A DNA stretch of 64,000 nucleotides from Pandoraea sputorum (GTDB lineage Bacteria > Pseudomonadota > Gammaproteobacteria > Burkholderiales > Burkholderiaceae), in contig NZ_CP010431.2 of assembly GCF_000814845.2 (NCBI RefSeq), positions 4,464,001 through 4,528,000 of the forward strand. The letters are read 5' to 3'. Every line of letters begins with the position of its first letter. Within the stretch, counting starts at the first letter, position 1. Positions 54,331 through 58,000 of the stretch are shown piece by piece. A program made the position numbers and the translations under genes. The notes below the pieces were generated by a model, which did no database searches, was not told the DNA's origin, and saw only the letters and a program-made list of their open reading frames with translations.

Positions 54331-54345
54331 TTTTCGGATTGTAGT

Positions 54346-55380
54346 ATGGCTTACAACGTTACCCTCGTGCCGAGCGGGCGCGAGTTCCAGATCGAAGATG
54401 GCGAGGCCGTCCTTTCCGCCGCACTGCGCCAGGGCATCGGCCTGCCTTACGGTTGCAAAAACGGCGGTTGCGGCTCGTGCAAAGCCAAACTGGTCGAAGG
54501 CACCGTCGAACACGGCGCACACGCCAGCTCGGCCCTCTCCAAGGACGAGGAAACCCGTGGCTTCGCCTTGCTCTGCTGCGCCCACACGAAAGGCGACCTC
54601 GTCATCGAGTCGCGTGAGGTCAAGGGCATCGGCGACATCCCGGTCAAGCGCCTGCCGTGCCGTGTGAATGCGCTGGAACGCCGCGCCGACGACGTCATCG
54701 TCATGCGCCTCCAACTGCCCGCCAACGAGCGCTTCCAGTACCTCGCCGGTCAATACATCGAATTCATCCTGAAAGACGGCAAACGTCGCAGCTATTCGAT
54801 GGCCACCGCGCCCCACGAAGAAGGCTTCCTCGAACTCCATCTGCGCCACATGCCCGGCGGCGTCTTCACCGACCATGTGTTCAACAACATGAAGGAGCGA
54901 GAGATCCTGCGCTTCGAAGGTCCGCTCGGCACGTTCTTCCTGCGGGAAGACTCCGACAAGCCGATCGTGCTGCTCGCCTCGGGCACCGGCTTCGCGCCGA
55001 TCAAGGCCATCGTCGAACACGCCGCACACAAGGGCCTTGACCGCCCGATGACGCTCTATTGGGGCGCGCGTCAGCTCAAAGACATCTACCTGCGCGAACT
55101 TGCCGAGCAATGGGCCCGTGAGATTCCCGGCTTCAAGTTCGTGCCGGTCCTCTCCGAAGCCGCGCCCGAAGACGCCTGGCAGGGCCGCACGGGCTTCGTG
55201 CACCGCGCCGTCGCCGAAGACCTGCCGGATATGTCGGGCTACGAGGTCTACGCCTGCGGTGCGCCCGTGATGGTGGAATCGGCCCGTCGCGACTTCATCG
55301 CTCATCACCAGTTGCCGGAAGACGCTTTCTTCGCCGATGCCTTCACCACCGAAGCCGATAACCCCGGCGGCGGCCAATGA
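54346..55380 (+). CDS. Ferredoxin-NAD(P)H reductase-like protein (CDP-6-deoxy-glucoseen reductase family)
   Basis: The protein has 344 residues. The N-terminal plant-type 2Fe-2S ferredoxin domain has ligands in LPYGCKNGGCGSCKAKL and LLCCAH (C-x4-C-x2-C and a distal C). An FAD domain follows (QYIEFILKDGKRRSYSMATA), then an NAD(P) domain (IVLLASGTGFAPIKAIVEHA, ending YEVYACGAPVMVESAR). It moves electrons from NAD(P)H through FAD and 2Fe-2S to an unknown acceptor. The usual annotation, CDP-6-deoxy-delta-3,4-glucoseen reductase, is a family label; no deoxysugar genes are nearby. ATG 54346 has no clear Shine-Dalgarno. Confidence 0.88.
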   Translation: MAYNVTLVPSGREFQIEDGEAVLSAALRQGIGLPYGCKNGGCGSCKAKLVEGTVEHGAHASSALSKDEETRGFALLCCAHTKGDLVIESREVKGIGDIPVKRLPCRVNALERRADDVIVMRLQLPANERFQYLAGQYIEFILKDGKRRSYSMATAPHEEGFLELHLRHMPGGVFTDHVFNNMKEREILRFEGPLGTFFLREDSDKPIVLLASGTGFAPIKAIVEHAAHKGLDRPMTLYWGARQLKDIYLRELAEQWAREIPGFKFVPVLSEAAPEDAWQGRTGFVHRAVAEDLPDMSGYEVYACGAPVMVESARRDFIAHHQLPEDAFFADAFTTEADNPGGGQ

Positions 55381-55466: not shown

Positions 55467-55496
55467 TTGACAAGCGCCGCGTCACCGCCTTATTCT
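55467..55496 (+). promoter_or_regulatory. Sigma70-like promoter of the argD-like gene
   Basis: TTGACA (55467-55472) is separated by 18 bp from TATTCT (55491-55496). Transcription would start about 55503-55504, at or next to the ATG of the arginine-rich leader ORF, which would then be leaderless or nearly so. Confidence 0.6.
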
Positions 55497-55503
55497 TGCC
55501 GAC

Positions 55504-55590
55504 ATGAACCTGATTGCCATCGCCTCGATCCGACGTCGCCGTACGCTGCCCCAACCGGGATGCCGCGCGGCACGCTATCGACTGCGATAA
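55504..55590 (+). CDS. Arginine-rich leader peptide (28 aa), candidate attenuator
   Basis: The ORF ATG 55504 to TAA 55588-55590 begins MNLIAIASIRRRR and continues TLPQPGCRAARYRLR. It holds eight Arg codons, four of them consecutive at codons 10-13 (55531-55542). It begins at the predicted transcription start and ends 24 nt before an intrinsic terminator that precedes an argD-like gene. This is the layout of amino-acid-specific ribosome-mediated attenuation. GGGATGCC (55557-55564) can pair with GGCACCC (55622-55628), with one bulged A, as an antiterminator. No Shine-Dalgarno is visible. The call rests on layout; it is not experimentally known to me. Confidence 0.6.
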   Translation: MNLIAIASIRRRRTLPQPGCRAARYRLR

Positions 55591-55614
55591 CACGCAAGTT
55601 CTCAAGCACAGCGA

Positions 55615-55642
55615 AGCCACGGGCACCCCCGTGGCTTTTTTT
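55615..55642 (+). terminator. Intrinsic terminator in the argD-like leader
   Basis: AGCCACGGG (55615-55623) and CCCGTGGCT (55628-55636) form a perfect 9-bp stem with loop CACC, followed by a run of T's to 55642. It lies 40 bp upstream of the argD-like ATG on the same strand, so it must be relieved for the gene to be expressed from the upstream promoter. Confidence 0.85.
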
Positions 55643-55681
55643 ATTCCTCCAGTCTCTTCTCACCTACCTTCGGAGACCGTC

Positions 55682-56950
55682 ATGTCGCTTGCTCAACCGT
55701 CCGCCGCCGCATCGTCAACCTCGCCCACCACGCCTAAGGCGGCACGTCACGCCAAGTTCGCGGATTTGCCCACACAGGCGCTGCTGCCGATTACCACGCG
55801 TCCCGAACTCGTGTTCACGCACGGCAAGGGCGGCTGGCTGTACGACCACGAAGGCAAGCGATATCTCGATTTCATCCAGGGCTGGGCCGTGAACAGCCTC
55901 GGCCATTGCCACCCGGTCATGCGCGACGCCCTCGCCACGCAAGGCTCGTTGCTGCTCAACCCGAGCCCCGCCTACTACAATCTGCCGATGATCGAGCTGG
56001 CCGACCTGCTCGCCAATCTCTCCGGCCTCGGCAAGGTTTTCTTCGCCAACAGCGGCGCGGAAGCCAACGAAAGCGCTATCAAACTTGCCCGGAAGTGGGG
56101 GCAACTGCACCCGAACAGCGCAGGCAAGGCTCGTTTCGAAATCATCACGTTCAAGAACGCCTTCCACGGCCGTACGCTCGCGACGATGTCTGCAAGCGGC
56201 AAGCCCGGCTGGGACACGATCTTCGCGCCGCAGGTGCCCGGCTTTCCGAAGGCCGAGCTGAACGACATCGCATCGGTCGAAGCCCTCATCGGGCCGGAGA
56301 CGGTGGCCGTGATGCTCGAACCGATTCAGGGCGAAGCCGGTGTCGTGCCCGCAACGCCTGAGTTCATGAAAGCGTTGCGCGAACTGACGACGGCGCGCGG
56401 GCTTCTGCTGATCGTGGACGAAGTGCAGACCGGCTGCGGACGCACCGGCACGCTCTTCCAGTATCAGCAGTCGGGCATCGTGCCCGACATCATGACGCTG
56501 GGCAAAGGCATCGGTGGCGGTGTGCCGCTGGCCGCCATGCTGTGCGGCGACGAGTTCGCCGTCTTCCAACCGGGCGATCAGGGCGGCACGTACAACGGCA
56601 ACCCGCTGATGTGCGCCGTCGGCCTCGCCGTGATGCGCACGGTCAGCTCCCCGGGCTTCCTCGAATTCGTGCGCGCGCAAGCGGATTATCTGAGCGCCGG
56701 ATTGCAGCATCTGTCGTCGCGCTACGGCGGTCAGGGGGAACGCGGCGCGGGTCTGCTGCGCGCGTTGCTGCTCGGTCGTGACATCGGCCCGCAACTGGTC
56801 GAAGCTGCACGCGACATGACACCGGACGGGCTGCTCCTCAACTCGGCGCGCCCGAACCTGCTGCGCTTCATGCCCGCACTGAACGTGAGTCGCGAAGAGA
56901 TCGATCAGATGCTCTCGATGCTCGACACGCTGCTCGCGAAGCACGTCTGA
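55682..56950 (+). CDS. argD: Acetylornithine aminotransferase-like PLP enzyme (ArgD family)
   Basis: The protein has 422 residues and is a class III aminotransferase. FANSGAEANESAIKLARKWG binds the cofactor phosphate, NAFHGRTLATMSASGKPGWD follows, LLIVDEVQTGCGRTGTLFQY holds the PLP-ring Asp, and MTLGKGIGGGVPLAAMLCG carries the Schiff-base Lys. GGAGA seven bases upstream fixes ATG 55682. ArgD converts N-acetylglutamate semialdehyde to acetylornithine in arginine synthesis; ornithine or GABA aminotransferases share the fold. The arginine-codon leader upstream supports the arginine role. Followed by a hairpin and a GNAT pair. Confidence 0.85.
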   Translation: MSLAQPSAAASSTSPTTPKAARHAKFADLPTQALLPITTRPELVFTHGKGGWLYDHEGKRYLDFIQGWAVNSLGHCHPVMRDALATQGSLLLNPSPAYYNLPMIELADLLANLSGLGKVFFANSGAEANESAIKLARKWGQLHPNSAGKARFEIITFKNAFHGRTLATMSASGKPGWDTIFAPQVPGFPKAELNDIASVEALIGPETVAVMLEPIQGEAGVVPATPEFMKALRELTTARGLLLIVDEVQTGCGRTGTLFQYQQSGIVPDIMTLGKGIGGGVPLAAMLCGDEFAVFQPGDQGGTYNGNPLMCAVGLAVMRTVSSPGFLEFVRAQADYLSAGLQHLSSRYGGQGERGAGLLRALLLGRDIGPQLVEAARDMTPDGLLLNSARPNLLRFMPALNVSREEIDQMLSMLDTLLAKHV

Positions 56951-57041: not shown

Positions 57042-57539
57042 ATGAACGACATGAGCCAGGGCCACCCGACACCGCCCGCCGACGCCATCGTCGAGATTTC
57101 GGCCGATCCGGCGCGGCTCGACATCGGCTTCATCCACAATGCCTTGTCGACGCAAACGGCGTGGGCGCAAGGCATTCCGCGCCACACGCTCGTGCGCGCG
57201 ATCACGCACTCGCTTTGCTTCGGCGCGTACGCAACGCAGGTCGAAGGCGGTCCGGCACGTCAGGTCGGCTTCGCCCGCGTGATCACCGACCACGCCACGT
57301 TCGCCTATCTCGCCGACGTGTTCGTCGATCCGTCCATGCGCGGCCTGGGGATCGGCAAGCGCCTGTGCGAGGATGTGCTCGCGCATCCGGCACTGCAAGG
57401 GCTGCGCCGCTTCCTGCTCGCCACGACCGATGCCGCCAGTCTTTACTCGCGTTATGGCTTCGAACCGCTCGGCGCAGTGAACAAGATGATGCAGATTCAC
57501 CGGCCCGACATCTACACAGGCCAACAGGAAGCGCCATGA
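57042..57539 (+). CDS. GNAT-family N-acetyltransferase
   Basis: The protein has 165 residues. GNAT core: GFARVITDHATFAYLADVFV, then the acetyl-CoA loop DPSMRGLGIGKRLCEDVLAH (R/Q-x-x-G-x-G/A form), and LATTDAASLYSRYGFEPLG. GGAGA nine bases before ATG 57042 supports the start. The stop overlaps the second GNAT gene (ATGA), so the two are co-translated. Substrate unknown. Confidence 0.86.
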   Translation: MNDMSQGHPTPPADAIVEISADPARLDIGFIHNALSTQTAWAQGIPRHTLVRAITHSLCFGAYATQVEGGPARQVGFARVITDHATFAYLADVFVDPSMRGLGIGKRLCEDVLAHPALQGLRRFLLATTDAASLYSRYGFEPLGAVNKMMQIHRPDIYTGQQEAP

Positions 57540-58000
57540 ACCGCATGCCCACCGACATCCATATCCGCACGTTCGACGACGCGGATACCGACGCCGTTAT
57601 CGCGCTCTGGCGTGAAGCCTTTCCGGAGTACAACCGCGCCGACAAACCGCATCGCGAACCGCGACGCTCGATTGCCAACAAAGTGGCCATGAAGGATGAC
57701 CTGTTCTTCGTCGCCGTGCGCGAACGCAAGATCGTCGGCACCGTCATGGCCGGTTATGACGGACATCGCGGCTGGGTCTATTCGCTGGCCGTCGCGCATG
57801 CGCTGCGACGTCGCGGTGTGGCAAGCGCGCTGCTGCATCACGCCGAAATCGCGCTGGCCGCGCGCGGCTGCCTCAAGCTCAATCTGCAAGTGCTCACGCA
57901 GTCGCGCGAAGCCCTCGCGTTCTATAACGCACACGGCTACGCCGCCGACGATGTCGTAAGCCTCGGCAAGCGGCTGCCGCTGACGGCGGTGGCGCAATAG
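57536..58000 (+). CDS. GNAT-family N-acetyltransferase (YpeA-like)
   Basis: The protein has 154 residues. It opens DIHIRTFDDADTDAVIALWR, then FFVAVRERKIVGTVMAGYDG and the CoA loop VYSLAVAHALRRRGVASALL, ending REALAFYNAHGYAADDVVSL. This is the layout of the YpeA group. It overlaps the preceding GNAT gene by four bases and ends before a bidirectional terminator. Substrate unknown; tandem GNATs may act on the same or related molecules. Confidence 0.86.
   Translation: MNRMPTDIHIRTFDDADTDAVIALWREAFPEYNRADKPHREPRRSIANKVAMKDDLFFVAVRERKIVGTVMAGYDGHRGWVYSLAVAHALRRRGVASALLHHAEIALAARGCLKLNLQVLTQSREALAFYNAHGYAADDVVSLGKRLPLTAVAQ

Follow-up and report, generated by a model that had tools for sequence, protein, structure and literature searches.

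Upstream of argD in Pandoraea sputorum lies a short leader which is very probably an arginine-specific, ribosome-mediated transcription attenuator of that gene. The window analysed here is a stretch of 64,000 nucleotides of this genome, and all coordinates refer to it (Table 1). Typical features of an attenuator are present: a leader open reading frame (ORF) with a repeated codon, an intrinsic terminator before the structural gene, and a target in the biosynthesis of the same amino acid. The antiterminator which takes up the 5′ arm of the terminator is seen by folding, and in the window it needs a ribosome on codons 2-4 of the arginine run. Arginine attenuation had been proposed for this locus in an initial annotation; the present analysis supports that reading, and the tests which could be run against it did not refute it.

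Table 1. Features of the argD leader region, in window coordinates.
Feature	Position	Strand	Remark
sigma-70-type promoter: TTGACA 55467-55472, 18-nt spacer, TATTCT 55491-55496	55467..55496	+	-10 box-to-leader-ATG distance conserved
Match to Rfam RF02884 BcKCsr7, whole model length	55490..55641	+	47.9 bits, E 7.2e-9 (351-base stretch)
28-codon leader ORF, predicted to be leaderless: ATG 7 nt past the -10 box, no Shine-Dalgarno site	55504..55590	+	
Arg run CGA CGT CGC CGT, proposed sensor codons	55531..55542	+	
Small predicted hairpin past the Arg run (CCC/GGG); proposed 1:2-type hairpin	55550..55559	+	
Antiterminator 5′ strand (predicted)	55558..55573	+	pairs with ribosome on Arg codons 2, 3 or 4
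Antiterminator 3′ strand (predicted), overlaps terminator 5′ arm and loop	55613..55627	+	
Intrinsic terminator, GAAGCCACGGG/CCCGTGGCTTT and T-run	55613..55642	+	
argD, acetylornithine transaminase	55682..56950	+	NCBIfam NF002985

The promoter, the 28-codon ORF, the arginine run and the argD start were all located where the initial annotation had placed them. The leader peptide, MNLIAIASIRRRRTLPQPGCRAARYRLR, is encoded by 28 codons between the ATG at 55504 and the TAA at 55588-55590; eight codons specify arginine, and four of these are consecutive (codons 10-13, 55531-55542). The ATG of argD at 55682 is preceded by GGAG at 55672-55675. The terminator had also been positioned correctly, but its stem comprises up to 11 pairs with a 4-nt loop (55613-55638) rather than 9. 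Likewise, the pairing described between GGGATGCC (55557-55564) and GGCACCC (55622-55628) was recovered, and it makes up the outer portion of a more extended helix, 55558-55573/55613-55627. The sequence TGCCGCGCGGCA, which had been taken for a competing palindrome, is mostly the 5′ strand of this antiterminator helix itself. In some relatives a hairpin longer than the one at 55550-55559 of the window is predicted around the leader stop codon.

The leader is real and more than a chance arrangement. In a 2-kb scan, 55467-55496 was the sole promoter (0.2 expected in shuffles) and 55613-55642 the sole terminator, terminator-like sites taken alone being no more frequent than chance (1 against a shuffle mean of 1.5). 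The segment 55500-55660 folds better than 200 of 200 shuffles (z -3.19). It is the combination of an ATG-initiated short ORF containing an Arg run with a terminator, and not the terminator alone, which exceeds chance.

Beyond the window, the Arg codons, the ORF start and the terminator are kept in the genus and widely across the family, and they recur at some loci in other families. A 231-base DNA query matched 30 of 32 genomes of the genus. Since the RF02884 model contains the terminator, loci were also picked by similarity of ArgD to a Burkholderia sequence; the 80 named loci, the best 80 of at least 588, stem mostly from Burkholderia, Paraburkholderia, Caballeronia and Trinickia. An ATG-initiated short ORF in which three or more Arg codons stand in a row, with a terminator behind it, is present in 73 of these 80 loci, compared with 1 of 4000 dinucleotide shuffles. 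Two further loci of Ralstonia type (L241, L242) possess the leader and fail on the T-run rule only, and a 'Candidatus Burkholderia' (L239) has a leader with RRCR. An insect-symbiont assembly (L236) shows a stop at the place where the Arg run would begin, another 'Candidatus Burkholderia' (L231) is without leader, and none was found in the two Robbsia loci (L240, L243) of this ArgD-picked set. As a side observation, the leader is lost or degraded in the symbiont-type loci (L231, L236, L239), which might reflect a relaxed control of arginine synthesis. Elsewhere (L240, L249, L146, L161) argD, judged by eye, follows closely behind the upstream gene with neither leader nor terminator seen, as if joined to that transcript.

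The first 100 loci included three which were not parsed: a divergent copy (L066), one with an N at the start codon (L088) and an arbitrary stretch (L091). In the 97 parsed loci, peptides range from 14 to 32 residues, yet the Arg run begins between codons 8 and 12; the terminator is present in 97 of 97, many of which had been picked with the model containing it. The initial annotation had named the Arg run, the stop position and the terminator as elements to compare: the run and the terminator are kept together with the ORF start, but the stop position varies widely, as does the rest of the peptide. Thirty further genomes gave an argD match at E 1e-110 in 19 cases, and 15 of these 19 loci, judged by reading the output, have a leader with at least two consecutive Arg codons, three of the 15 lying outside the family.

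Counting each genome once, leaders with at least two consecutive Arg codons occur in 13 of 25 loci outside the family, spread over six families. All loci are positive in f3 (4/4), f24 (4/4), f15 (1/1) and f35 (1/1), and the results are mixed in f8 (2/3) and f39 (1/3). No Arg-run leader was counted in f4 (0/4), f21 (0/1) or f30 (0/1), the last having a run but no terminator seen. Family f5 was counted as 0/3, its leaders being rich in arginine but with at most RR.R or one RR. These f5 leaders (L274, L275, L276) contain CGA codons, no long run and a GGGCCACGG-like terminator, and they are possibly a differently built arginine sensor. The order-wide search gave an argD match at E 1e-100 in just 30 of 200 genomes, so that these counts speak for a minor part of the order.

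The leader ORF is probably leaderless, since its promoter ends 6-8 nt from the ATG and it lacks a Shine-Dalgarno site. Of 162 distinct upstream sequences, 161 have the -10 box of their best promoter ending at this distance (5 of the 161 tie with another distance), a count which depends on taking the downstream ATG where two are found in frame (MLAxMN...). The downstream one was taken because the upstream ATG falls inside the -10 box. A distance of 7 nt alone is found in 117 of the 162. A Shine-Dalgarno-like word precedes the leader ORF in 0 of 162 sequences, as against 77 of 80 argD starts. A transcription start on the leader ATG or just beside it, as earlier proposed, agrees with the promoter position in the 161 sequences and with the length, 147 nt, of a B. 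cenocepacia transcript.

Codon choice within the run is narrow. Among 105 distinct leaders with at least three consecutive Arg codons (which leaves out the Cupriavidus-type RR..R), CGA is the first run codon in 104. The 407 run codons, which come from related sequences and are not independent events, comprise 108 CGA, 99 CGT and 200 CGC, with CGG, AGA and AGG at 0. For comparison, the argD genes of the 80 named loci use CGA for 40 of 1466 Arg codons (2.7%), and CGG, AGA and AGG together for 157 of 1466. Outside the family, CGA heads the run in 12 of 13 positive loci, and L270 has CGA second and third. Run codons 2-4 differ in their third base while still encoding arginine, in leaders which were chosen for having the run; a few other leaders have RRRH, RRRS or RRRC. 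CGA is poorly read by the tRNAs for CGU, CGC and CGA, and CGA-containing Arg pairs were highly de-attenuating in a Salmonella his-leader assay (PMC4046918). The near-fixed CGA at the head of the run and the coincidence of the ATG with the predicted transcription start suggest a sensor adjusted at the level of both codons and initiation.

The slow decoding of CGA pairs in that assay would also suit a leader which shares the attenuator layout but reacts to slow translation in general, or to free arginine by way of the nascent peptide, instead of to charged Arg-tRNA. Sensing of arginine by a nascent peptide exists in fungi. We consider such a sensor quite unlikely here: the residues around the run are unconserved, unlike the needs of a stall peptide, and what is kept are the Arg codons and their identity.

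How the arginine signal could reach the terminator was approached by folding. With a ribosome on Arg codons 2-4 and the RNA extended up to the terminator loop, 55558-55573 of the window is predicted to pair with 55613-55627; with the ribosome on the first run codon, the conserved CGA, this helix is not predicted (sequestration 0.31; other pairs form). All 68 distinct sequences folded are predicted to sequester the terminator 5′ arm to a greater extent than the mean of their shuffles (0.80 vs 0.53), up to 11 of 30 shuffles reaching the observed value in single sequences. Over 81 distinct sequences, placing the ribosome on the run gives the predicted antiterminator -6.4 kcal/mol, and placing it at the stop gives -3.1; the antiterminator is stronger in the former state in 72 of the 81, and 9 are out of the expected order. 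In the window itself the corresponding values are -7.5 vs -5.2 kcal/mol with sequestrations of 0.72 vs 0.68, a modest and weak predicted discrimination.

On average over 20 representatives, cognate combinations of upstream strand and terminator are favoured over non-cognate ones (-9.2 vs -6.8 kcal/mol; p 0.0007; as with all folding p-values here, relatedness is ignored), and individually this is so in 16 of the 20. The cognate partner was no better in Pandoraea, Burkholderia, a Cupriavidus-like genome and f39, and the window antiterminator ranks 11 of 20 against non-cognate ones, that is, no better. In f24, the leader strand TGCGGCC faces the terminator arm GGCCGCA, both strands differing from the Burkholderiaceae type. 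Eighteen loci of other genera and families show a small excess over shuffles (0.70 vs 0.57), with one clearly above its own shuffles; two of the 18, misplaced at first, give 0.76 and 0.77 when redone. In Caballeronia-type short leaders, the stop codon falls within the loop of a hairpin predicted immediately ahead of the antiterminator strand, which is the geometry needed by a trp-type switch.

Covariance folding had been suggested in the initial annotation as a check. A consensus fold of 40 sequences of all clades gave 3 pairs and no compensatory change, and does not support a common helix; the MAFFT alignment fails to line up the helix across genera. In three of four clade sets (Caballeronia, g13+g25, and the second Paraburkholderia set), a GGCU-type strand pairs with the terminator 5′ arm; a helix with this arm was not seen in the Burkholderia-Paraburkholderia clade set of 13. 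Few double changes are available, as the two strands are nearly invariant inside each clade. When full-length RNAs are folded to equilibrium, most of 26 representatives favour the terminator even if a ribosome is stalled on them; the switch would therefore have to be kinetic. The antiterminator logic put forward for the locus thus holds by folding over the sequence set, where the predicted helix is good on average, but only modestly in the window.

From these data we infer that the leader is translated, that ribosomes stall within it and that the outcome responds to arginine. Transcription would begin on the leader ATG or right beside it, and translation of the ORF would do without a Shine-Dalgarno site. 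Under a shortage of charged Arg-tRNA, the ribosome would stall on the CGA-CGY-CGC-CGY run and leave 55558-55573 free, which is predicted to pair with the terminator 5′ arm and loop; with this antiterminator formed, RNA polymerase would continue into argD. When arginine is plentiful, the ribosome is predicted to clear the run and reach the stop, where it would cover the antiterminator strand or let the upstream hairpin take this strand up. The terminator would then form and yield the short leader RNA alone, and this terminated product would be the BcKCsr7/nc5U30 transcript of B. cenocepacia.

The RNA itself is already catalogued (BcKCsr7, nc5U30 or RIT34) and is filed as an sRNA without assigned function. 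The window scores 47.9 bits with RF02884, under the gathering score of 59. At E 0.001 or better, 182 of 299 genomes of the family match the model; they belong to 9 of 25 genera, and 133 of the 299 exceed the cut-off. Among 300 genomes of the order 12 matched, 4 of them Burkholderiaceae (three over the cut-off, and the window); the remaining 8 are weak (E 1e-4 to 8e-4) and were left out of the counts, the range being extended by looking upstream of argD instead. In strain J2315, Bc_KC_sr7 (= nc5U30 = RIT34) occupies 2,967,641-2,967,787 of chromosome 1, or 147 nt; for B. cenocepacia nc5U30, expression in biofilms is listed, with lower levels during infection of C. elegans and higher ones with organic peroxide (PMC10987360). 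Leaderless transcripts are reported in the same B. cenocepacia strain (PMC4603805). The B. cenocepacia RNA is listed as a short 5′-UTR transcript, and for this class PMC5688073 describes 82 5′UTRs giving short transcripts through processing or attenuation; the main text of that paper is without the prefix 'nc5U'. The interval between the leader ATG and the T that opens the terminator run measures 142-151 nt across 14 argD loci of Burkholderia, with exactly 147 nt in 7 of them. In this comparison of length alone, the 147-nt transcript fits, indirectly, a 5′ end at the leader ATG.

Its listing among sRNAs by Rfam and by the B. cenocepacia catalogue, which gives the expression changes mentioned above, would be natural for a trans-acting RNA conserved for pairing with distant mRNAs, the ORF being incidental. 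This is very unlikely to be its main role, as the leader stands between promoter and argD in ArgD-anchored loci, and as peptide length and much of the sequence change whereas Arg codons, CGA choice and ATG position persist. In addition, a crude duplex test of the leader against the argG, carA and argJ starts of four genomes gave no signal against shuffles (12 pairs, lowest rank 6 of 100). A trans role added to attenuation is possible. That the ORF is untranslated, with the CGN run a by-product of a GC-rich structured leader ahead of a constitutive or otherwise controlled terminator, would agree with the missing Shine-Dalgarno site and with the pairing of the CGACGYCGC stretch in the window's ribosome-free fold, but is scarcely credible given the arginine kept under third-base variation at run codons 2-4 (with the selection and the few exceptions noted above), the frame open in several families despite differing lengths and sequences, the ATG fixed relative to the promoter, and a combination which almost never arises in shuffles.

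Attenuation of argD would place the control on arginine synthesis proper. The argD product scores 685.5 bits with NF002985 (cut-off 568), which by sequence makes it the biosynthetic acetylornithine transaminase. The nearest argD paralogue in the same genome (L108) is 39% identical and shows no such leader. An ATG-initiated Arg-run leader with terminator was not found upstream of argG (4 loci), carA (4), argJ (4) or seven transaminase paralogues; two of the four argG matches are weak (E 3e-17, 2e-19) with unfixed gene starts. Among the arginine genes looked at (argD, argG, carA, argJ), argD is the only one bearing the element.

The arginine repressor ArgR was searched as PF01316 only and within the family Burkholderiaceae, where it was found in 0 of 120 genomes; it was detected in 9 of 14 control genomes. 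Pseudomonas has an unrelated AraC-type ArgR, which falls outside a PF01316 search. ArgR is conserved in many gammaproteobacterial groups and absent from the other classes of the set considered in PMC5343134. With no ArgR found in the family, the attenuator would let the supply of arginine feed back directly on its synthesis.

In the window, argD is followed by two genes for GNAT-type acetyltransferases (57042-57539 and 57536-58000), the second matching NF002959 (PRK03624) with 178 bits (cut-off 124). By eye, one locus each of Burkholderia (L104) and Paraburkholderia (L103) shows a similar GNAT gene behind argD, and from this arrangement the GNAT gene may share the argD attenuator. Directly upstream of the leader lies a ferredoxin/flavin reductase-like gene (54334-55380) whose NCBIfam matches are all under cut-off; its 3′ end is recognisable by eye upstream of argD in several relatives.

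If the attenuator is true, arginine joins the amino acids sensed by leader-peptide attenuation, and a testable answer is at hand to how arginine synthesis is matched to supply in a family where ArgR was not found. The attenuator would also suggest a function for BcKCsr7, a catalogued RNA family filed as small RNA, and the varied natural leaders provide a good comparative set. By analogy with rnTrpL/peTrpL in Sinorhizobium, the leaderless CGA-led attenuator might even be a main arginine sensor of ArgR-less Betaproteobacteria, with the BcKCsr7 RNA or the Arg-rich peptide acting in trans on other arginine genes. We regard this wider proposal as unlikely; if true, one element would sense arginine in cis and broadcast it in trans.

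The initial annotation had suggested that an arginine attenuator of argD may be new, which holds in part. No paper giving this function was found, but the RNA was known under the names given above. The search covered the open-licence literature, outside which subscription papers mostly lie, and no arginine attenuator of argD was found there, which is weak evidence of absence. The main text of a genome-wide attenuator survey contains neither 'arginine' nor 'argD' (PMC2965389).

With the trp/his-type attenuators of Proteobacteria, the argD leader shares an end-product codon run in a leader ORF, an intrinsic terminator, a competing antiterminator and a matching pathway. Those attenuators respond to Trp, His, Leu, Ile, Thr or Phe; the argD leader differs from them by its arginine codons, the lack of a Shine-Dalgarno site and the CGA-led run. 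It is homologous to BcKCsr7 over the full Rfam model, unlike it in that BcKCsr7 is filed as an sRNA and the window remains under the gathering score. Sinorhizobium meliloti trpL is likewise leaderless, with a transcript starting at the leader ATG, and its termination frees a small RNA containing the leader ORF; in contrast, it has Trp codons, precedes trpE(G), and its small RNA and peptide act in trans (PMC7298713).

The closest described systems are the P. aeruginosa carA leader (PMC4997734) and Salmonella speF orf34 (PMC6386406). For carA, a leader peptide and possible attenuation are reported as well; however, the attenuation signal named for it is pyrimidines, arginine acts at transcription, and the gene is another one. 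An Arg-run leader with terminator was not seen upstream of carA in four genomes. The speF orf34 differs in having two consecutive Arg codons, in working via Rho, speF translation and RNase G, and in controlling polyamine rather than arginine synthesis, and its abstract names no intrinsic-terminator switch. Common to orf34 and the argD leader is an upstream ORF with successive Arg codons, at which a pausing ribosome reports, or in argD would report, low arginine.
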